Positions 33,815 through 41,894 of a DNA stretch of 64,000 nt are shown here, one piece after another (the first letter of the stretch is position 1; the number at the start of each line of letters is the position of its first letter). Under the pieces are notes generated by a model. The model was not told the origin of the DNA. It worked only from the letters and a program-made list of their open reading frames with translations, and did not search any database. Source of the stretch: Herbidospora sakaeratensis (GTDB lineage: Bacteria > Actinomycetota > Actinomycetes > Streptosporangiales > Streptosporangiaceae). The stretch spans positions 133,950-197,949 of the forward strand of contig NZ_BBXC01000018.1 in assembly GCF_001570525.1 (NCBI RefSeq). The letters run 5' to 3'. The position numbers were made by a program, and so were the translations under genes.

Positions 33815-35178
33815 TGGAAGCCCATCGCCTTCATGTCCCGGTGCATCGGATGGGGCTGCGCCTCCAGGTCGGGCAGCACCCGCTCCAGATCCGCCAGCAG
33901 CAGATCGGCCAGGTCATGGGTGAACCCGTTCCGCACCACGATCCGCAGCACCGCCAGATCCTCCCGGTCCTTCGGGAACGTGTACGCCGGCACCAGCCAC
34001 CCCCGCTCCCGCAGCCGCCGCGACACGTCGAACACGTCGAAGGCCGTCACGGAGTCGGCCGTCGTGAACGCGAACACCGGCAACTCGTCGCCCCGGGAGA
34101 TGAGCCGGAACACCCCCAGCTCGCCGATCTTCCGCGACAGGTGGGTGGCCACCGCGCGTGAGATCCCCTGGACCTCCTGGTACCCCTGCCGCCCGAGCCG
34201 CAGGAAGTTGTAGTACTGCGCCACCACTTCGGCCCCGGGCCGGGAGAAGTTCAGGGCGAAGGTCGGCATGTCCCCGCCGAGGTAGTTGACCCGGAAGATC
34301 AGCTCCTCCGGCAGGCACGAGGTGTGCCGCCACAACACCCACCCCACCCCGGGATACACCAGCCCGTACTTGTGGCCCGACGTGTTGATCGAGGCCACCC
34401 GGGGCAGCCGGAAGTCCCAGACCAGCCCGGGGTCGAGGAAGGGCGCGATCATCGCCCCCGAGGCGCCGTCGACGTGCACGGGGATGTCCCAGCCGCGCGC
34501 GTCCTGGAGCGCGTCGAGCGCCCCGCAGATGTCGGCCACCGGCTCGTACGACCCGTCGAACGTCGACCCGAGGACCGCGACCACGCCGATGGTGTTCTCG
34601 TCGCAGTACTTCACCGCCTCCTCGGCGGTCAGGTGGAACCGCTCCCCCGACATGGGCACCAGCCGGGGCTCGACCTCCCAGTAGCGGCAGAACTTCTCCC
34701 AGCACACCTGGACGTTGGCCCCCATGACCAGGTTGGGTTTCCCGGGCCCCGACCAGCGGCGTTTCAGCGCCAGGCCGGCCAGCATGCACGCCTCGCTCGA
34801 ACCCGTCGTCGAGGTGCCGATCACGTCGGCGGGTGAGGGGGCGTTCCACAGGTCGGCCAGGATGCAGACGCAGCGCCGTTCGAACTCGGCCGTCTGCGGA
34901 TACTCGTCCTTGTCGATCATGTTCTTGTCGGCGCACTCGGCCATCAGCCGGGCGGCCTGCGGCTCCATCCACGTCGTCACGAACGTGGCCAGGTTGAGCC
35001 GGGCGTTCCCGTCGAGCATCAGTTCGTCGTGGACGAACTGCCACGCCGCCTCGGCGGGCACCGGTGTGTCGAAGAGCCGGTGGGTGGGGGCGGTCAGGTC
35101 GAGACCCAGCGCCGTGACCGGGTTGACCGATCGCGACGCCGGGTGCTTGTGGTGCGCGTGTCCGGAATGCAACGCCAT
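33808..35178 (-). CDS. gadB: Glutamate decarboxylase
   Basis: A 456-residue PLP enzyme that converts glutamate to GABA, consuming a proton. [19 protein letters not shown] and [13 protein letters not shown] hold cofactor-contacting residues, and the Schiff-base lysine is K270 in [14 protein letters not shown]. The length is full for the bacterial family. No antiporter gene is adjacent, so a role in GABA supply to the catabolic genes near 54 kb is as plausible as acid resistance. Confidence 0.94.
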
Positions 35179-35214
35179 GCTCGATGTCTATCAGTCACCG
35201 AGCCGTCACACGGG

Positions 35215-36432
35215 TCAGGCGCGCTCGGCCGCCACCAGCCGCACGCAGACCGCCAGGCCGCTGATCGCCGCCTCCAGCTCCGCCGTGTCGGGGAACGTGG
35301 GGGCGATGCGGATCACCGAGTCGGACGGGTCGTCCCCGTAGGGGTGGGTGGCCCCGGCCGGGGTCAGCGCGATGCCGGCCTCGGCGGCGCGGCGCACGAC
35401 CTCCTTGGCCGTGCCCTCGGGCACCGAGAGCGAGATGAAGTAGCCGCCGAGCGGCGACGACCAGGTCGCCAGGCCCGAGAGCTCCTTCGACAGGATGCGG
35501 TCGACGGTCTCGAACTTGGGCCGGATCAGGTCGGCGTGGGCGCGCATGTGGGCGCGCACGCCGTCTTCGTCGCGCAGGAACTCGACGTGGCGCAGCTGGT
35601 TGACCTTGTCGGCGCCGATCGTGCCCTTGCCCAGGTAGCCGAGGAACCAGGCGATCGTCTCGGGCGAGCCGCCGAAGAACGACACGCCCGAACCGGCCAG
35701 GGTGACCTTCGACGTCGAGCCGAAGACGAACACGCGGTCGGCGTTGCCGGCCTCGGTGGCCAGCGCCAGCAGGTCGGCGAGCTCGGCCTCCTCGTCGAAG
35801 AGGTGGTGGATGGCGTAGGCGTTGTCCCAGAAGATCCGGAAGTCGGGCGCCGCGGTGGTCATGGTGGCCAGCCGCGCGACGGTCTCGGCCGAGTAGGTGG
35901 TGCCGTCGGGGTTGGAGTACTTCGGCACGCACCAGATGCCCTTGATCGCCGGGTCGGCGGCGACGAGGCGCTCGACCTCGTCCATGTCGGGACCGGCGGG
36001 GGTCATCGCGACCGGGATGAGCTCGATGCCGAAGCGCTCGCACAGCGCGAAGTGGCGGTCGTAGCCCGGCACGGGCGCCAGGAAGGCCACCCGCTCCTCG
36101 TCGGCCCACCGCCGGGCGGCGCCGAGCGGCACCCCCAGCAGGCAGTGGACGATCGCGTCGTGCATCAGGGCGAGGCTGGAGTTGCCGCCCACGATGAGCT
36201 GCGAGGCCGGGACCTGGAGGAACCCGCTGAACAGCGCCCGGAGCTCGGCCAGGCCGTTGAGCCCGCCGTAGTTGCGGGTGTCGGTGCCGTCGGCGGAGCG
36301 GTAGGACGTCCCGGGCAGCGAGAGCATCGGGGTGGAAAGATCGAGCTGGGCCGAGGCGGGCTTGCCCCGGGTCAGGTCGAGCTTCAGTCCCCTGGCCTTC
36401 AGCTCCTCGTACTCGGCACGCACGTCGCTCAT
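35215..36432 (-). CDS. Type Ic aspartate aminotransferase-like enzyme
   Basis: A 405-residue fold-type I PLP enzyme of the actinobacterial Asp_aminotransf (PF12897) family. Landmarks are LKLDLTRGKPASAQLDLS at the N-terminus, RNYGGLNGL, VPKYSNPDGTTYS, DNAYAIHH and the PLP lysine in FGSTSKVTLAGSG. It likely interconverts aspartate/2-oxoglutarate and oxaloacetate/glutamate. Thirty-six bases separate it from gadB downstream, so co-transcription is possible. Confidence 0.88.
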   Translation of the reverse strand: MSDVRAEYEELKARGLKLDLTRGKPASAQLDLSTPMLSLPGTSYRSADGTDTRNYGGLNGLAELRALFSGFLQVPASQLIVGGNSSLALMHDAIVHCLLGVPLGAARRWADEERVAFLAPVPGYDRHFALCERFGIELIPVAMTPAGPDMDEVERLVAADPAIKGIWCVPKYSNPDGTTYSAETVARLATMTTAAPDFRIFWDNAYAIHHLFDEEAELADLLALATEAGNADRVFVFGSTSKVTLAGSGVSFFGGSPETIAWFLGYLGKGTIGADKVNQLRHVEFLRDEDGVRAHMRAHADLIRPKFETVDRILSKELSGLATWSSPLGGYFISLSVPEGTAKEVVRRAAEAGIALTPAGATHPYGDDPSDSVIRIAPTFPDTAELEAAISGLAVCVRLVAAERA

Positions 36433-36475
36433 CGCGGGTTCCCTCGGTAGTAATGGGCGGTCAGCGAAAGCTTAG

Positions 36476-37681
36476 TCACCACAACCCGCTCTCCCGCCGC
36501 GAGGTGATCTCCCCGATCCTCGCCAGCGCCTCCCCCACCGGCAGGGCGGCGAGCTTGCGGCCGTCCCGGAGCCGGATCGACACCTCGCCGGCGGCGACCT
36601 CCCGGGACCCGATGATCAGCTGGTACGGCGCCAGCCGCGCCTCCCGGATCCGCGCCCCCAGGCTGCCCTTCTCCGGCCCGGCCAGCTCGGCGCGCAGCCC
36701 GAGACCGGCACAGCGCGAGACGACCGAGTCGGCGAACGCCACCTCGTCCTCCCCGAGGGGCAGCACCACCGCCTGCACCGGCGCGAGCCAGGCCGGGAAC
36801 GCCCCGCCGTGCACCTCGATCAGGTGGGCGACGGCCCGCTCGACGCTGCCGACGATGCTCCGGTGGACCATGACGGGCCGGTGCCGGGCCCCGTCGGGGC
36901 CGGTGTACTCCAGGTCGAACCGGGCGGGCTGGTAGAGGTCGATCTGGACGGTCGACAGGGTCGACTCGCGCCCGAGGTTGTCGGCGATCTGGATGTCGAT
37001 CTTCGGCCCGTAGAAGGCGGCCTCGCCCTCGACGGCCTCGTACTCGACGTCGTGCAGCACCTCGCGGAGCATCTCCCCGGCGCGCTCCCACAGGCCCGGG
37101 ACCGCGACGTACTTCCCGGAGGCGCCCGGGAGCGAGAGCCGGTGGCGCACGGGCTTGATGCCCATGGCGGCGTGGGCGGCGGCGATCAGTTCGAGGGCGG
37201 CGCGGGCCTCCTCGACGGCCTGTTCGGCGGTGCAGAAGATGTGCGCGTCGTTGAGCTGGATGGCGCGTACGCGGGTCAGCCCGCCCAGCACCCCTGACAA
37301 CTCCGACCGGTACATGCCGCCGAGTTCGGCCAGCCGGAGCGGCAGGTCGCGGTAGCTGCGCCCGCGTGCGCGGTAGATCAGCGCGTGGTGCGGGCACAGG
37401 CTGGGCCGCAGCACCACCTGCTCCCCGCCGACCGCCATCGGCGGGTACATGTCGTCGCGGTAGTGGTCCCAGTGGCCGGAGATCTCGTAGAGCTCGCGCT
37501 TGCCCATGATCGGCGAGTAGACGTGCCGGTAGCCGTTGCGTCTCTCGACGTCGCGGACGTAGTCCTCCAGCGCCATCCGGACCGCCGCGCCGTCGGGCAA
37601 CCAGAAGGGCAACCCGGCGCCCATGAGCGGATCGCCGTCGAACAAATCGAGCTCGCGGCCGAGCCTGCGGTGGTCGTACAT
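36476..37681 (-). CDS. thrS: Short threonyl-tRNA synthetase lacking the TGS and editing domains
   Basis: A 401-residue class II synthetase with only the catalytic and anticodon-binding parts of ThrS. It begins YDHRRLGRELDLF, the junction after the editing domain in long ThrS (about 650 residues). Motif 2 is YRSELSGVLGGLTRVR; zinc ligands are Cys in RPSLCPHH, His in NDAHIFC and His in VMVHRSIVGS; motif 3 is GSVERAVAHLIE. Second, short ThrS copies occur in other actinomycetes. Without an editing domain it may mischarge Ser. ATG at 37681 has AAGGGAG 8 bases upstream. An attenuator precedes it. Confidence 0.92.
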   Translation of the reverse strand: MYDHRRLGRELDLFDGDPLMGAGLPFWLPDGAAVRMALEDYVRDVERRNGYRHVYSPIMGKRELYEISGHWDHYRDDMYPPMAVGGEQVVLRPSLCPHHALIYRARGRSYRDLPLRLAELGGMYRSELSGVLGGLTRVRAIQLNDAHIFCTAEQAVEEARAALELIAAAHAAMGIKPVRHRLSLPGASGKYVAVPGLWERAGEMLREVLHDVEYEAVEGEAAFYGPKIDIQIADNLGRESTLSTVQIDLYQPARFDLEYTGPDGARHRPVMVHRSIVGSVERAVAHLIEVHGGAFPAWLAPVQAVVLPLGEDEVAFADSVVSRCAGLGLRAELAGPEKGSLGARIREARLAPYQLIIGSREVAAGEVSIRLRDGRKLAALPVGEALARIGEITSRRESGLW

Positions 37682-37722
37682 GATCGTGTCTCCCTTGGTG
37701 AGAAGGGGGCGCACACGAACAC

Positions 37723-37753
37723 CGAAGCCCGGGGCGGTGCGCCCCGGGCTTCG
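37723..37753 (-). terminator. Attenuator hairpin in the thrS leader
   Basis: A perfect 14-bp stem (CGAAGCCCGGGGCG with its complement) and a 3-base loop, located between the leader peptide and thrS. On the minus strand it is followed by GTGTTCGTGTG, moderately T-rich for this genome. Its stability and its location 42 bases before the thrS start argue for regulated termination. Confidence 0.8.
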
Positions 37754-37767
37754 AAGTAAGGCAGTGG

Positions 37768-37818
37768 TCAGCGCGCCGGGACGGAGTCCGGCGTCGTCGT
37801 CAGATGGGCGCGCTGCAT
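37768..37818 (-). CDS. Thr-codon leader peptide of thrS
   Basis: A 16-residue frame, MQRAHLTTTPDSVPAR, whose residues 7-9 are three consecutive ACG threonine codons. It is located 86 bases before thrS and is followed 14 bases later by the terminator hairpin. A second small hairpin, CGCCGG/CCGGCG (37774-37793), spans its codons after the Thr run. The layout is that of ribosome-mediated attenuation: stalling at Thr codons when charged tRNA-Thr is scarce should prevent termination. It starts with a leaderless-type ATG (TAGCGT box 6 bases upstream). Confidence 0.8.
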   Translation of the reverse strand: MQRAHLTTTPDSVPAR

Positions 37819-37824
37819 ACCCGA

Positions 37825-37830
37825 ACGCTA
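37825..37830 (-). promoter_or_regulatory. -10 box of the thrS leader transcript
   Basis: On the minus strand TAGCGT is followed by 6 bases and the ATG of the leader peptide, so transcription should begin at or near that ATG. No clear -35 is visible. Confidence 0.6.
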
Positions 37831-37964
37831 ACACGAGGGCTCTTCCGAGGTCTCCCAAAATTCCGGCCCCCTCCCACCCGGGGGTCGGCGGCCATCATGC
37901 CCCGCGCGACCGACGTTTCCGCCGAACCGGCCCGCCCCCTGTGGAAAGCCGGTGTTCCGAACAG

Positions 37965-37978
37965 ACCGACCGGTCGGT
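37965..37978. promoter_or_regulatory. 14-bp perfect palindrome in the SDR promoter
   Basis: ACCGACCGGTCGGT lies between the -35 region and the TACCCT -10 box (37978-37983) of the SDR gene. Such GC palindromes are typical TetR-family operators. No regulator gene is adjacent. Confidence 0.6.
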
Positions 37979-37983
37979 ACCCT
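37978..37983 (+). promoter_or_regulatory. -10 box, leaderless start of the SDR gene
   Basis: TACCCT lies 7 bases before the ATG at 37991, with no RBS. The palindrome at 37965-37978 overlaps its first base. Confidence 0.5.
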
Positions 37984-37990
37984 CAGCCTC

Positions 37991-38752
37991 ATGACTCTCT
38001 TCTCGGTCGAAGGCAAGATCGTCGTGGTGACCGGCGGGTCCCGTGGGATCGGGCGGATGATCGCCCAGGGGTTCGTCGACGGCGGCGCGACCGTCTACCT
38101 CACCGCCCGCAAGAAGGACCAGCTGGAGGAGGCCGCCGCCGCGCTGGGGTGCGGCTCGGTGCAGGCCGACCTGTCCACGCGCGAGGGGGTCGAGGCCGTG
38201 CACGACCTGGTCGCCGCCCGTCACGACCGGCTCGACGTGCTGGTCAACAACGCCGGCGCGGCCTGGGGCGCGCCCCTCGACGACTATCCCGATTCGGCCT
38301 TCGACAAGCTCTGGAACATCAACGTCAAGGGCGTCTTCGCGCTGACGCAGCGGTTCCTGCCGCTGCTCAGGAAGGCCGCGAGCCCCGACGACCCGGCCCG
38401 GGTCATCAACATCGGCTCGGTCGACGGCCTGCGCACCCCCGCGATGGAGAGCTACGCCTATTCGGCCACGAAGTCGGCGGTCCACATGCTGACCCGGCAC
38501 CTGGCCGACCGCCTGGCCAAGGAGTCGATCACCGTGAACGCCATCGCCCCCGGCCCGTTCGAGTCGAAGATGATGGCGTTCGTGCTCGACGACCCGCAGG
38601 CCCGCGAGATGGTCGCCGCCAGCGTGCCGCTCGGCCGGATCGGCCGTCCCGACGACATGGCCGGGACGGCGATCTTCCTGGCCTCACGGGCCGGTTCCTA
38701 CCTCACCGGGACCGTCATCCCGGTGGACGGCGGCATCACCGCCCACGGCTAG
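37991..38752 (+). CDS. Short-chain dehydrogenase/reductase (3-oxoacyl-ACP reductase/RhlG-like)
   Basis: A 253-residue classical SDR. TGGSRGIGR (residues 14-22) binds NADP, LVNNAGAAWG follows, the catalytic Ser is in INIGSVDG and Tyr/Lys are in YSATK. The end IPVDGGITAHG is typical of reductases of 3-oxoacyl or rhamnolipid-type substrates. The true substrate cannot be told. The ATG at 37991 fits leaderless expression. Overlaps the ATP-grasp gene tail-to-tail by 4 bases. Confidence 0.88.
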   Translation: MTLFSVEGKIVVVTGGSRGIGRMIAQGFVDGGATVYLTARKKDQLEEAAAALGCGSVQADLSTREGVEAVHDLVAARHDRLDVLVNNAGAAWGAPLDDYPDSAFDKLWNINVKGVFALTQRFLPLLRKAASPDDPARVINIGSVDGLRTPAMESYAYSATKSAVHMLTRHLADRLAKESITVNAIAPGPFESKMMAFVLDDPQAREMVAASVPLGRIGRPDDMAGTAIFLASRAGSYLTGTVIPVDGGITAHG

Positions 38753-39561
38753 GAGAGCATCTCCTTCAGCGCGCGGGCGAAGAAGGCCGGCGCCTCGAGT
38801 TCGGTGTCGAGGTAGAGGAACGGCTCGGTGAGCTCCAGCTCGATCAGCACCGGCTCGCCGCCGGGCATGCGCACGAGGTCGACCCGGGCGTAGAGGAGCG
38901 GCTCGGCCACCTTGCCCAGGATCTCTTCGGCCAGGTCGAACTGGTCGTCGTCGGGGTCGCGCAGGGTGGCCTTGGCCCCGGCGTCGTTGAGGTCGCCGAC
39001 GCCCGCGACCAGCAGCGGGGTGCGCCTGACGGCGTGGCTGAACTGGCCGTTGAAGTAGTGGAGGGACAACTCGCCCTCGTGCTCGACGCTCTCGACGTAG
39101 GGCTGCACCATGATCGGCCGGCCCTGGGCCTCAAGGGAGGCGGCGAACGCGGCGGCCTTCTCGGCGGAGGGGGTGCGGATGGTGTCGCGGGCGCCCGCGG
39201 AGATGGTCGGCTTGACGACGTACTCGGCCCAGTCGGGCAGGGCGAGGGAGCTCCAGTGGGTCGGCACGGTCGGCACGCCCAGGTGCTTCAGGTAGGTCTT
39301 GTCGGTGTTCCAGGCCAGCACCGACGCCGGGTTGAGCACCCGCGTGTGCTGTTCGGCCCGCCAGGCCCAGTCGATGAACTCGTCGCGCCGGCCCACGTAG
39401 TCCCACGGTGAGCGGACCACGGCCGCGTCGAACTCCGACCAGTCGGCCTCGGGGTCGTCCCACCGGACCGGTGCGCCCTCGATCCCCTCGGCGAGCCAGG
39501 CCGAGAGCACGGTCTCGCGTTCCGGATCGGGCCCGTCCCAGGTGACATACGCGGCCTTCAT
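38749..39561 (-). CDS. ATP-grasp domain protein
   Basis: A 270-residue protein similar to RimK/glutathione-synthase-like ATP-grasp enzymes, which join a carboxylate to an amine or thiol using ATP. It shows VVRSPWDYVGRRDEFIDWA, WNTDKTYLKHLGVPTVPTHW, the ATP-lysine block EYVVKPTISAGARDT, MVQPYVESVEHEGELSLHYFNG and metal ligands in LIELELTEPFLYL. Substrates unknown. The ATG at 39561 is preferred because AAGGGGA lies 6 bases upstream; a Met at 39567 abuts that RBS. Confidence 0.8.
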   Translation of the reverse strand: MKAAYVTWDGPDPERETVLSAWLAEGIEGAPVRWDDPEADWSEFDAAVVRSPWDYVGRRDEFIDWAWRAEQHTRVLNPASVLAWNTDKTYLKHLGVPTVPTHWSSLALPDWAEYVVKPTISAGARDTIRTPSAEKAAAFAASLEAQGRPIMVQPYVESVEHEGELSLHYFNGQFSHAVRRTPLLVAGVGDLNDAGAKATLRDPDDDQFDLAEEILGKVAEPLLYARVDLVRMPGGEPVLIELELTEPFLYLDTELEAPAFFARALKEMLS

Positions 39562-39622
39562 CGACATTCCCCTTGCATGTGCGGATGACGTACAAGGACC
39601 CATCATGGCCGCAACGCACGGC

Positions 39623-39661
39623 GGCGCGCGCCGGGCCCGGAAGGAGAGCCCGGCGCGCGCC
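39623..39661 (-). terminator. Terminator after the small secreted protein genes
   Basis: A perfect 14-bp stem (39623-39636 with 39648-39661) with an 11-base loop, 11 bases past the stop at 39673. Ends the two-gene transcript of small secreted proteins. Confidence 0.75.
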
Positions 39662-39672
39662 GGAGTCGACGA

Positions 39673-39933
39673 CTAGTCGTCGAAGCGGTAGGCGAGGCCC
39701 GCCACGCTGTTGCGGGCGGTGACCGAGACACCGTTGATGGTGTTGGAGTTGGTCGACGAACCGCCGCCGATGTTGGTGGCGGCGACGTTGCCGAACACGT
39801 TGCCCGACTGGGCGGAGCCGCGGTTCACGCTGCCGTTGCTGATCCAGGTGTCGGCCTGGGCGGGCGCGGCGGCCAGCAGGGTCGCGCCACAGGCGGCGAG
39901 GACGGCACCGGTCACGGCGAGCTTCTTGAACAT
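39673..39933 (-). CDS. Small secreted Asn/Gly/Ser-rich protein, copy 2
   Basis: An 86-residue precursor with a clear signal peptide (cleavage after AQA). The mature 58 residues share the pattern DTWxxN-xSxNxGSAQSGNxFGxVAAxN-GxGxSTNxNTINGxSxTA with the neighbour. The short, hydrophobic-alternating, Asn/Gly/Ser-rich sequence is reminiscent of self-assembling surface proteins such as chaplins or curlins but matches neither family. No cysteines in the mature part. GAAGGAGA lies 4 bases before the ATG. Confidence 0.75.
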   Translation of the reverse strand: MFKKLAVTGAVLAACGATLLAAAPAQADTWISNGSVNRGSAQSGNVFGNVAATNIGGGSSTNSNTINGVSVTARNSVAGLAYRFDD

Positions 39934-39978
39934 GTTCTCTCCTTCGGGTGGGGTGAGTGCTGGGGACGCGACCGCGGT

Positions 39979-40236
39979 TTACTTGAAGATGTAAACCACG
40001 GTCACGCTGCCGCCAGTGGCGGTAGCGGAGATGCCGTTGATGGTGTTGACGTTCGTCGAACGGCCGGAGCCGGCGTTGCGCGCCGCGACCCAGCCGAAGT
40101 TGTTGCCCGACTGAGCCGAACCGATGTTCGCGCTCCAGTTGTCGGACCACGTGTCGGCGTGGGCCGGGGTGGCGATGAGGCTCGCACCCGCGGCGGCCGC
40201 GAGCATCGCACTGGTCACGCAGATCTTCTTGATCAC
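39979..40236 (-). CDS. Small secreted Asn/Gly/Ser-rich protein, copy 1
   Basis: An 85-residue precursor, paralogue of the next gene downstream, with a signal peptide ending AHA. The mature part carries SAQSGNNFG, VAARN and STNVNTINGISATA. GTG at 40236 is chosen for GAAGGAG 5 bases upstream; the open frame extends to 40302 without another RBS. Only 45 bases and no terminator separate it from the second copy, so the two are likely co-transcribed. A TetR-type palindrome lies upstream. Confidence 0.75.
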   Translation of the reverse strand: MIKKICVTSAMLAAAAGASLIATPAHADTWSDNWSANIGSAQSGNNFGWVAARNAGSGRSTNVNTINGISATATGGSVTVVYIFK

Positions 40237-40270
40237 TACGGCTCCTTCTCGCGCTTTCCTTGACGGTCTG

Positions 40271-40288
40271 TTTGACTGGCCGGTCAAA
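40271..40288. promoter_or_regulatory. TTTGAC/GTCAAA inverted repeat upstream of the secreted protein pair
   Basis: TTTGACTGGCCGGTCAAA is an 18-bp palindrome with one mismatched pair, 35 bases before the GTG of copy 1. It contains a possible minus-strand -35 (TTGACC). Likely an operator, regulator unknown. Confidence 0.5.
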
Positions 40289-40361
40289 GCACTGCCGAGC
40301 ATATAGCTCTGCGTAGTCGATTGATAGCACTCTGTGATCAGAATTTTGGTCTGGAAATGGA

Positions 40362-40393
40362 AACGGCCCCGCGGCTGCGCCCGCGAGGCCGTT
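40362..40393 (-). terminator. Terminator of the GH3 gene
   Basis: 13-base arms (40362-40374 and 40381-40393) pair with one mismatch around CTGCGC. On the minus strand the stem is followed by TTTCCATTTCC, a rare T-rich run here. Fourteen bases after the GH3 stop. Confidence 0.75.
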
Positions 40394-40406
40394 GCTTATG
40401 GGGATT

Positions 40407-41894
40407 TCACGGCAAACGACCGGTCAAGGTCTCGGCCGCCGCCTGACCGCAGACGCGCGACGCGCCGTGTGTCGCGATGTGCACGGAGCCCAGGTCGGTG
40501 CGTCCCGGCAGGCCCATCTCGACCACCACGCCGTCGGGGCGGGCGGCCAGCATGTGGCCGAGGGCGTCCATCTGCCAGGCGTGGCGGTGGGCGTCGCGCA
40601 CGACCACGACCAGCGGGCGGTCGGCGGCCCGGTCGAGGAGGTCGGCGGGCACGCCGTCGGCCAGTTCGGCCTCGCCGAGACGGGTCACCGTGGTGCCGGG
40701 GAGGAGCGCTCCCAACGGCTCGCCGACGCCCCACGGCTGGCCCTTGTCGATGGCCAGGTTGGTGTCGGGCGACAACTCGACGACGTGGGGGGCCGTGCTG
40801 AGCGGCAGGCGGGCGCCGTCGTGGTGGACGACCCTGATCGCGCGGCGGGCGGCGGCCAGGCCGACCGGCCCGCCGTTCAGCACCCGGTCCTGGAGCGGCA
40901 GCCGCCAGGCGGCCAGCTTGGCCACCCGGGCGCACGCCTCGTGCAGGCGGGCCTCCGGCAGCAGGCCGCTCACGACGGCGTCGGCGATCGACTCGCGGAT
41001 GTGGTCGAAGGTCGCCTCGTCGGCGTGCTCGCCGCCGACGCAGATCGAGTCGGCCCCGGCCGCCACCGCGCGGGCGGCCGCGCCGCCGATGCCGTAGACC
41101 TGCGCGACGGCGGCCATCTCGATGGCGTCGGTGATCACCACGCCGTCGAAGCCGAGCTCGCCCCGGAGCAGGTCGGTGAGGATGCGCGGGCTCAGCGTGG
41201 CCGGCATCGCCTCGTCGTACGCCGGCACGACCAGGTGCCCCGTCATGATCGCCCGCACGCCCTCCTCGATGGCAGCGCGGAACGGCCAGAGCTCCACCTC
41301 GTGGAGTTCCTCGCGGGTGACCGCGACGACCGGCAGGCCGTGGTGGGAGTCGACGGCGGTGTCCCCGTGGCCGGGGAAGTGCTTGGCGCAGGCCGCCACG
41401 CCGGCCGACTGCAGGCCCCTGATCCAGGCCGCCGTGTGGCGGGCGACCAGGCCCGGGTCGGCGCCGAACGAGCGCAGCCCGATCACCGGGTTGTCGGGGT
41501 TGGAGTTGACGTCGGCGGCGGGGGCGAAGTTGATCGTCACCCCGGCGGCCGCCAGGTCGTGTCCGACGTCCCTGGCCACCTCCTCGGTGAGATGCACGTC
41601 GTCGACCACGCCGAGGGCGTAGTTGCCGGGGCGGGAGCTGCCCGTACGGGCCTCCAGCCGGGTGACGTCGCCCGCCTCCTCGTCGATGCCGACCAGGAGC
41701 GCGGGGTTCTCCGCGCGCAGCGCGGCCGTGAGGGCCGCCAGCTGGTCCGGCGTGTCGACGTTCCGGGAGAACAAGACCACTCCGGCGAGGCCGTCGGCGA
41801 GACGCCGGCGCAACCAGTCGGGGGGCGAGGTCCCGACGAAGCCGGGGAGGATGACCGAATCAGCCAGACGCAGCAGCTCCGTGCTTCGCGTCAT
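40407..41894 (-). CDS. GH3 beta-N-acetylhexosaminidase (NagZ-like)
   Basis: A 495-residue glycosidase that releases terminal GlcNAc or related residues. The GH3/NagZ motif KHFPGHGDTAVDSH, carrying the His/Asp acid-base pair, is near residue 175. The nucleophile Asp is in VVITDAIEMAAV. A C-terminal domain of about 150 residues follows. No signal peptide, so it acts in the cytosol, probably on recycled muropeptides or imported chito-oligomers. The ATG at 41894 is inside the stop of a 7-codon upstream frame (ATGA), which may deliver ribosomes; a GTG at 41906 is an alternative. Confidence 0.9.
   Translation of the reverse strand: MTRSTELLRLADSVILPGFVGTSPPDWLRRRLADGLAGVVLFSRNVDTPDQLAALTAALRAENPALLVGIDEEAGDVTRLEARTGSSRPGNYALGVVDDVHLTEEVARDVGHDLAAAGVTINFAPAADVNSNPDNPVIGLRSFGADPGLVARHTAAWIRGLQSAGVAACAKHFPGHGDTAVDSHHGLPVVAVTREELHEVELWPFRAAIEEGVRAIMTGHLVVPAYDEAMPATLSPRILTDLLRGELGFDGVVITDAIEMAAVAQVYGIGGAAARAVAAGADSICVGGEHADEATFDHIRESIADAVVSGLLPEARLHEACARVAKLAAWRLPLQDRVLNGGPVGLAAARRAIRVVHHDGARLPLSTAPHVVELSPDTNLAIDKGQPWGVGEPLGALLPGTTVTRLGEAELADGVPADLLDRAADRPLVVVVRDAHRHAWQMDALGHMLAARPDGVVVEMGLPGRTDLGSVHIATHGASRVCGQAAAETLTGRLP

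Follow-up and report, generated by a model that had tools for sequence, protein, structure and literature searches.

Within the 64,000-nucleotide stretch of Herbidospora sakaeratensis DNA analyzed here (the window), a short gene for threonyl-tRNA synthetase (ThrRS) lies behind a leader that is highly likely to be a ribosome-mediated attenuator controlling this reserve enzyme. The preliminary description had arrived at the same reading. It is the best explanation of the conservation of the leader, of its leaderless promoter and of its mutually exclusive folds.

The leader, the hairpin and the short synthetase

All the elements lie on the minus strand of the window. A −10 element, TAGCGT (37830-37825), is placed six bases 5′ of the ATG of a thrL-like leader ORF of 16 codons (37818..37768) that encodes MQRAHLTTTPDSVPAR followed by a stop. 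The codons are ATG CAG CGC GCC CAT CTG ACG ACG ACG CCG GAC TCC GTC CCG GCG CGC TGA, and the peptide conforms to a conserved M(K/Q)RA..TTTP(E/D).VPAR-stop. The regulatory codons ACG ACG ACG occupy 37800-37792. Codons 2-4 make up segment 1, CAGCGCGCC (37815-37807), which pairs with 37777-37769 in the ribosome-free fold of the whole leader. A small hairpin CGCCGG/CCGGCG (37793-37788 / 37779-37774), read from the letters, lies beyond the Thr run, where the preliminary description had put one. In constrained folding segment 2, CGTCCCGGCGCGCTG (37783-37769), has two alternative partners, segment 1 and segment 3; its pairing with the latter, as CGTCCCGG, gives an antiterminator. Segment 3, CCGGGGCG (37747-37740), lies within the presumed terminator, a hairpin of 14 bp with a 3-base loop formed by segments 3 and 4, CGAAGCCCGGGGCG-CAC-CGCCCCGGGCTTCG (37753-37723). 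Segment 5, CGTGTGCGCCCC (37717-37706), was recognized by covariation and is complementary to the hairpin tip (by eye, GGGGCGCAC plus CG with one bulged U). The Shine-Dalgarno sequence AAGGGAG (37696-37690), also read from the letters, precedes thrS (37681..36476), with its ATG at 37681.

The promoter element, leaderless frame, ACG run, 14-bp hairpin, Shine-Dalgarno sequence and short gene had all been given correctly to the base. The attenuator had also been called complete. The leader, the hairpin and the exclusive folds are indeed present, but there is no U-tract after the hairpin. Rfam covariance models applied to 35000-41000 gave three chance-level matches, none of them at the leader, and a T-box riboswitch or other Rfam family was rejected there for lack of a match.

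The 401 aa product has catalytic and anticodon-binding domains only. It scores 427 bits with TIGR00418 (cut-off 384), and the domain search found PF00587 and PF03129 alone, with TGS and editing domains absent. The protein aligns with solved ThrRS structures over almost its entire length, and with 1nyq over 3-371. In the latter alignment C96, H147 and H273 fall at what we take to be the zinc-ligand positions. The class II core, the Cys/His/His set and the anticodon domain identify it as a threonyl-tRNA synthetase. Its nearest named relatives are from Herbidospora, with 87-95% protein identity. A gene for aspartate aminotransferase type Ic (35215..36432, minus strand; NF053594 607 bits, cut-off 435) begins 43 bases downstream of thrS and is possibly co-transcribed with it. 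Elsewhere in the window, 38749-39567 (minus strand) encodes a protein resembling the D-cycloserine synthetase DcsG, scoring 212 bits, below the 360-bit cut-off.

Concerning purpose, the short ThrRS might be an inhibitor-resistant spare, switched on if the main ThrRS is blocked by an antibiotic. This would be compatible with an attenuator, and we regard it as possible but less likely than not. It is consistent with the occurrence of the short ThrRS beside a full-length ThrRS (two hits in genome G000; locus L001), and there is a precedent, going by reference titles, in an auxiliary TrpRS acting against indolmycin in Streptomyces. Copies of the short gene are broken in several genomes and the enzyme is therefore dispensable; it seems that the spare is lost now and then.

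Conservation and alternative folding of the leader

The short enzyme is encoded at 106 places among 297 genomes of the order to which the window belongs, and in the order listing it is well separated from full-length ThrRS (bit scores of at least 510 compared with about 350 or less). Eighteen of 396 genomes drawn from the phylum match at 1e-108, some in long open frames. Matches occur in 130 of the 295 genomes in the genus of genome G319, with 132 places listed. We take this genus to be Streptomyces because two genomes within it carry the published S. lividans leader peptide.

We examined conservation over 203 loci (L007-L209), including that of the window. The sequence feature expected of an attenuator, a short leader frame whose codon run matches the amino acid handled by the gene behind it, is present in 186 of the 203, as a frame ending TTTP..VPAR-stop or a close variant. 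Relatives in this comparison are not independent; 172 of the 186 leaders are distinct as 205-nt stretches. ACG is found at the three Thr positions in 182, 185 and 186 of the 186 respectively, and CCG GCG CGC TGA is nearly invariant, presumably because this stretch serves as RNA as well as peptide. A TANNNT box lies 5′ of the start in 185 of the 186 leaders (7 nt away in 153 and 6 nt in 32), compared with 2.2% of shuffled upstream sequences; the box was sought 4-8 nt before an in-frame start, several starts being tried for each real leader and only the chosen one in the shuffles. The leader is therefore probably leaderless. A hairpin of at least 6 bp is found 3′ of the stop in 184 of the 186. 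A U-tract is absent after it, 156 of the 184 having 2-4 U in the next ten bases.

The remaining loci are varied. L056 and L170 have the leader with its tail shifted, the sequence of L149 starts 102 bases 5′ of the gene, and at L111 and L112 the leader is absent. L120 and L123-L129 are distant matches, seven of the eight in open frames of 578-669 aa; the long-frame matches are probably full-length thrS. Distant ThrRS genes at L118, L119, L121 and L122 (52-56% identity) are preceded by differing Thr-rich leaderless frames and CCCGG-type hairpins. L122 alone is shown to be short, with 36 residues before the GAGLP motif; L118 holds an internal stop, and the open frames that contain L119 and L121 are longer. 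The link of this type of ThrRS with a Thr leader may be old.

All 20 further loci from the genus of G319 (chosen from the 132 listed places) carry such a leader, although three have two Thr codons in place of three and one ends VPVC. The preliminary description had proposed looking for homologous leaders without the Thr codons or the hairpin and, decayed copies aside, that check did not count against it. Given the conservation in 186 of 203 loci we reject chance or artifact, and the leader is certainly a conserved element.

Constrained folds were calculated for the leaders of L007, L043, L085 and L153 with the ribosome modeled as an unpaired footprint. With a stalled ribosome, and segment 3 out but segment 4 not yet, the 2:3 helix forms in all four with −11.5 to −21.4 kcal/mol; a leader with a short hairpin gives a weaker one (L085, −11.5 and −15.3). 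With the ribosome at the stop codon the four leaders form the 3:4 hairpin once segment 4 is out, and with no ribosome and segment 4 out they form 1:2 plus 3:4. Before segment 4 is out, the ribosome-free L007 and L043 place segment 1 on segment 3 instead of forming 1:2. In the four leaders the computed antiterminator and terminator thus exclude each other, with the position of the ribosome deciding between them. When segment 4 is out, 3:4 is favored even with a stalled ribosome, and the switch must therefore be kinetic.

Alignment A2 was drawn from the 177 leaders whose thrS start could be assigned; thinning by similarity left 74, including that of the window. Helices 1:2 and 3:4 are jointly 94.3% paired in A2 and beat 500 of 500 shuffles on five measures. 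Their two-sided changes all fall in 3:4, where 8 of 13 hairpin pairs change on both sides. The three sub-helices of 1:2 are 98-99% paired in the 74 leaders with one-sided changes only, and RNAalifold chose 1:2 unaided. The 2:3 helix is 93.9% paired and overlaps invariant codons; it is itself invariant and lacks covariation, which therefore neither supports nor opposes it.

In the attenuator that we favor, transcription would start at the leader ATG, in keeping with the −10 spacing here and with RNA-seq reported for the S. lividans homolog (PMC8079986, in part). With ample charged tRNAThr the ribosome would reach the stop codon and cover segment 2, so that the 3:4 hairpin would form and RNA polymerase would presumably stop. 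If ACG-reading charged tRNAThr were short, the ribosome would stall on ACG ACG ACG and cover segment 1, and formation of 2:3 would allow read-through into thrS. Without a ribosome 1:2 would form, and the 3:4 hairpin would again shut the gene. The absence of a U-tract makes intrinsic termination no more than presumed, and it is the main gap in the transcription model.

Unconstrained RNAalifold also pairs the hairpin tip with the element between the hairpin and the Shine-Dalgarno sequence. This 3:5 helix is 93.4% paired, with two-sided changes at six of eight pairs, for example GGCGAGUG with CACUCGCC, GGGCGAACG with CGUUCGCCC and GGGCGCAC with GUGCGCCC. It was reached by 0 of 500 shuffles on four measures and by 2 of 500 on a fifth. 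The downstream elements were also permuted among representatives of the loop classes (one for each of 29 classes, using 182 of the 186 leaders), and the observed fit was never reached in 1000 trials. On this comparative evidence we take the 3:5 helix as real, and it perhaps provides a second, translational layer.

Control might instead lie in translation. The hairpin would then have no terminator role, segment 5 would mask the Shine-Dalgarno sequence, and translation of the leader would pick 3:5 (open) or 5:6 (closed). We consider this unlikely. The missing U-tract, the covariation of 3:5 and the fit of the loop classes to their own downstream elements, which no permutation equaled, would suit it, but 5:6 was rejected as a covarying helix since 45 to 73 of 500 shuffles reach it. 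Predicted accessibility of the Shine-Dalgarno sequence averages 0.25; shuffling the linker raises it to 0.36 and blocking the linker to 0.59. In 131 of 160 leaders the value is below that for a shuffled linker. That too is in line with translational control, yet the leader of the window behaves in the opposite way (0.34 real, 0.21 shuffled), and the 14-bp hairpin would be far stabler than an equilibrium switch needs. The transcriptional and translational levels could act together.

A covariance model, R1, matches 173 of the 297 genomes of the order at 1e-3. It finds the leader of the window, which is one of its 74 training rows, at 2.2e-26. Twenty match places were fetched, ten of them strong ones in genomes without a listed intact short thrS. 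Eight weaker matches (L246-L253) precede full-length thrS and reveal a second class of leader, M...TTTPG..RR..-stop, with its own hairpin. L270 is a ninth locus of this class, which comes from four genera of the order sample (g12, g18, g38 and g43). We rejected a Thr leader as a usual feature of housekeeping thrS: a filter that required a −10 box and a frame of at most 39 residues containing TT found none in L001 and none in 19 of 20 further upstream stretches, the one being L270.

The leader is kept at L237-L242 and L244 ahead of short thrS copies that are deleted, interrupted, frameshifted, shortened or decayed. L238 has an IS605 OrfB transposase gene (Pfam) inside its copy, and L243 ends at a contig edge. 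At L245 (G161, C26:80400-83600) a serine recombinase gene (PF00239, PF07508) directly follows the leader and the remainder of short thrS is about 20 kb away; apparently an element has integrated inside the start of the gene. L236 (G048) has a single open short ThrRS frame with several near-identical repeats (RALRGSDGLPPSTDASGAAPFPSPAIAH) inserted before the conserved PGGKY motif. The weak R1 match L254 (G024, C1:2563100-2566000) has an aromatic-codon-rich leaderless frame, MQRKFWRFYGYRPSGRTVALLALR and stop, followed by a hairpin and then a T run. It is perhaps another attenuator.

Threonine codons of the leader and the gene body

The codon repeated in the leader is nearly absent from the genes that follow it. 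In a first set (whole open genes from 75 of 80 short thrS loci) the Thr codons are ACC 721, ACT 13, ACG 2 and ACA 0, an ACG share of 2/736. A second set (34 of 35 whole short thrS), which includes the gene of the window and shares species with the first, has ACC 316, ACT 6, ACG 1 and ACA 1, and so 1/324. The short thrS of the window has six Thr codons, all ACC and none ACG. By comparison ACG accounts for 1236/3578 = 34.5% of Thr codons in flanking ORFs, which were picked by high GC3 and may include a few wrong frames. Three neighboring genes in the window, taken without an SDR gene whose frame had been misread, have 19/64, and the aspartate aminotransferase gene, with 7/24, is not ACG-poor. 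Codon use for Ala, Pro, Val, Ser, Gly, Leu and Arg in short thrS is close to that of the flanks. Among the amino acids compared the bias is therefore specific to Thr, and a general high-expression bias was rejected as its whole cause.

Full-length thrS without a leader has ACG 38/265 in the homologous region (19 genes of the same order), with 29/157 = 18% in 11 genomes that have the short gene and 9/108 = 8% in 8 genomes that do not. Set against this, the pooled short thrS genes have 3/1060, with a Fisher value of 1.7e-24 that is not a true probability given related sequences. ThrRS genes in general may have some of this decrease in common, because the unattenuated full-length genes (8% and 18%) lie below the flanks (34.5%), four of the 19 have no ACG in the compared region, and the full-length thrS of the window's genome has 1/14. 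The same split is seen in full-length thrS with the second class of leader, where ACG is 2/212 of Thr codons (frames taken from stop to stop, last 690 residues, which may include leader-side bases; L249 and L270 partial). One full-length thrS with a class II leader has ACG 0/9 in the homologous region. The N-terminal counts appear misframed for G111, G229, G273, G008 and G147, and the class II Fisher value based on them was set aside.

Of 53 tRNA hits, 45 were examined, and they include a single gene each for tRNAThr with anticodons CGT, TGT and GGT; in a further two hits the anticodon is unclear. From the sequences, an ACG leader before an ACG-poor body suggests isoacceptor-specific sensing, in which the leader seems to query the ACG-reading tRNA and the body to rely on other tRNAThr. 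The product would be a reserve ThrRS whose ACC- and ACT-using mRNA is read by tRNAThr(GGU) and translatable while ACG stalls, which would account for the bias. We tentatively put forward a joint reading that we find plausible, if not quite probable. The leader ACG codons would sense charging of tRNAThr(CGU), and of UGU by wobble. A body purged of ACG and ACA would use tRNAThr(GGU) alone and could be made while ACG stalls elsewhere, and the 3:5 helix would add translational to transcriptional control.

It is very improbable that translation as such (reinitiation or mRNA protection) is all that the leader ORF contributes, with its Thr codons a mere RNA pairing constraint: the third ACG and the CCG sit in the CGCCGG/CCGGCG hairpin and VPAR-stop overlaps segment 2, so that much of the peptide follows from the RNA, but the first two ACG codons lie in no strong predicted helix of the constrained folds and are kept in almost every leader, the distant L118, L119, L121 and L122 retain Thr runs in otherwise different peptides, and the gene body avoids this same codon.

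Relation to known attenuators

The attenuators of E. coli pheST, a synthetase operon, and of the thr operon use the logic of 1:2, 2:3 and 3:4 helices. Attenuator leaders in proteobacteria have a Shine-Dalgarno sequence and a U-tract, and terminators without a U-tract have been proposed in actinobacteria. Judging from its title, a study by Vecchione and Sello in 2010 reportedly places the gene for an auxiliary antibiotic-resistant TrpRS of Streptomyces under ribosome-mediated transcriptional attenuation, and one by Lopatovskaya et al. in the same year is said to treat attenuation of aminoacyl-tRNA operons. The TrpRS attenuator responds to tryptophan and not threonine, and Trp has one codon, so codon avoidance cannot be asked there.

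Seliverstov et al. 2005 predicted leuS and trpS attenuators in Streptomyces, and also name that of pheST (PMC1262725, in part). Like that of the window, these are of the classical type before actinobacterial synthetase genes. Poly-U tracts are given for their terminators, in the text for trp operons and in a figure legend for leuS, whereas the hairpin in the window is without one. In the available part of that survey no structures are given for other pathways, and thrS is not in its text. Tandem T-boxes lie before thrS in Bacillota and, like the leader described here, would place thrS under RNA control by tRNAThr charging (PMC12452182, in part). T-boxes bind tRNA directly and have no leader peptide, in contrast to the present leader, which has no Rfam match. 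Elf and Ehrenberg 2005 predicted that regulatory codons are those most sensitive to limitation, selective charging being reported as verified for Thr, Leu and Arg tRNAs (PMC1183508, in part). Their work is a model illustrated from E. coli; in the present case the controlled gene avoids the same codon that its leader uses.

The preliminary description had supposed that a Thr attenuator of an actinobacterial thrS was undescribed. That is incorrect, since Droste et al. 2021 include thrL, encoding MKRVRPFLETTPGFVPAR and a stop before S. lividans thrS, when they tabulate attenuators found by RNA-seq (PMC8079986, in part). Other actinobacterial thrS attenuators were found neither by title or abstract start in the literature searched (most subscription journals lying outside it) nor in the available passages of PMC2965389 and PMC12452182. 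The published thrL is transcribed leaderless and called threonine-dependent, and its uridine stretch is noted as missing. The leader of the window belongs to this family. The exact published peptide precedes short thrS in L216 and L220 (2 of the 20 loci read in the genus of G319), where the hairpin is of the same sequence type as that of the window, and the window leader aligns in A2. Thus thrL of S. lividans TK24 resembles the window in having a leaderless Thr leader before thrS and no uridine stretch, although it has two Thr codons where the window leader has three. As excerpted, the account of thrL has one hairpin, with no antiterminator, second helix or codon bias, and neither the codon split nor the second helix is described in the passages of the cited literature.

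With 172 distinct natural variants, what had been a single entry in a Streptomyces reannotation is now seen to be a regulatory RNA that is widespread and can be aligned. The codon split is an unusually clean natural test of the theory of isoacceptors losing charge at different rates. Many soil actinobacteria retain a ThrRS that has no editing domain and seems to be controlled by Thr-tRNA, and this bears on ThrRS inhibitors and mistranslation. Beyond the published thrL, what is new here are the ACG-poor bodies of short thrS, the covarying second helix, and the second class of leader before full-length thrS.
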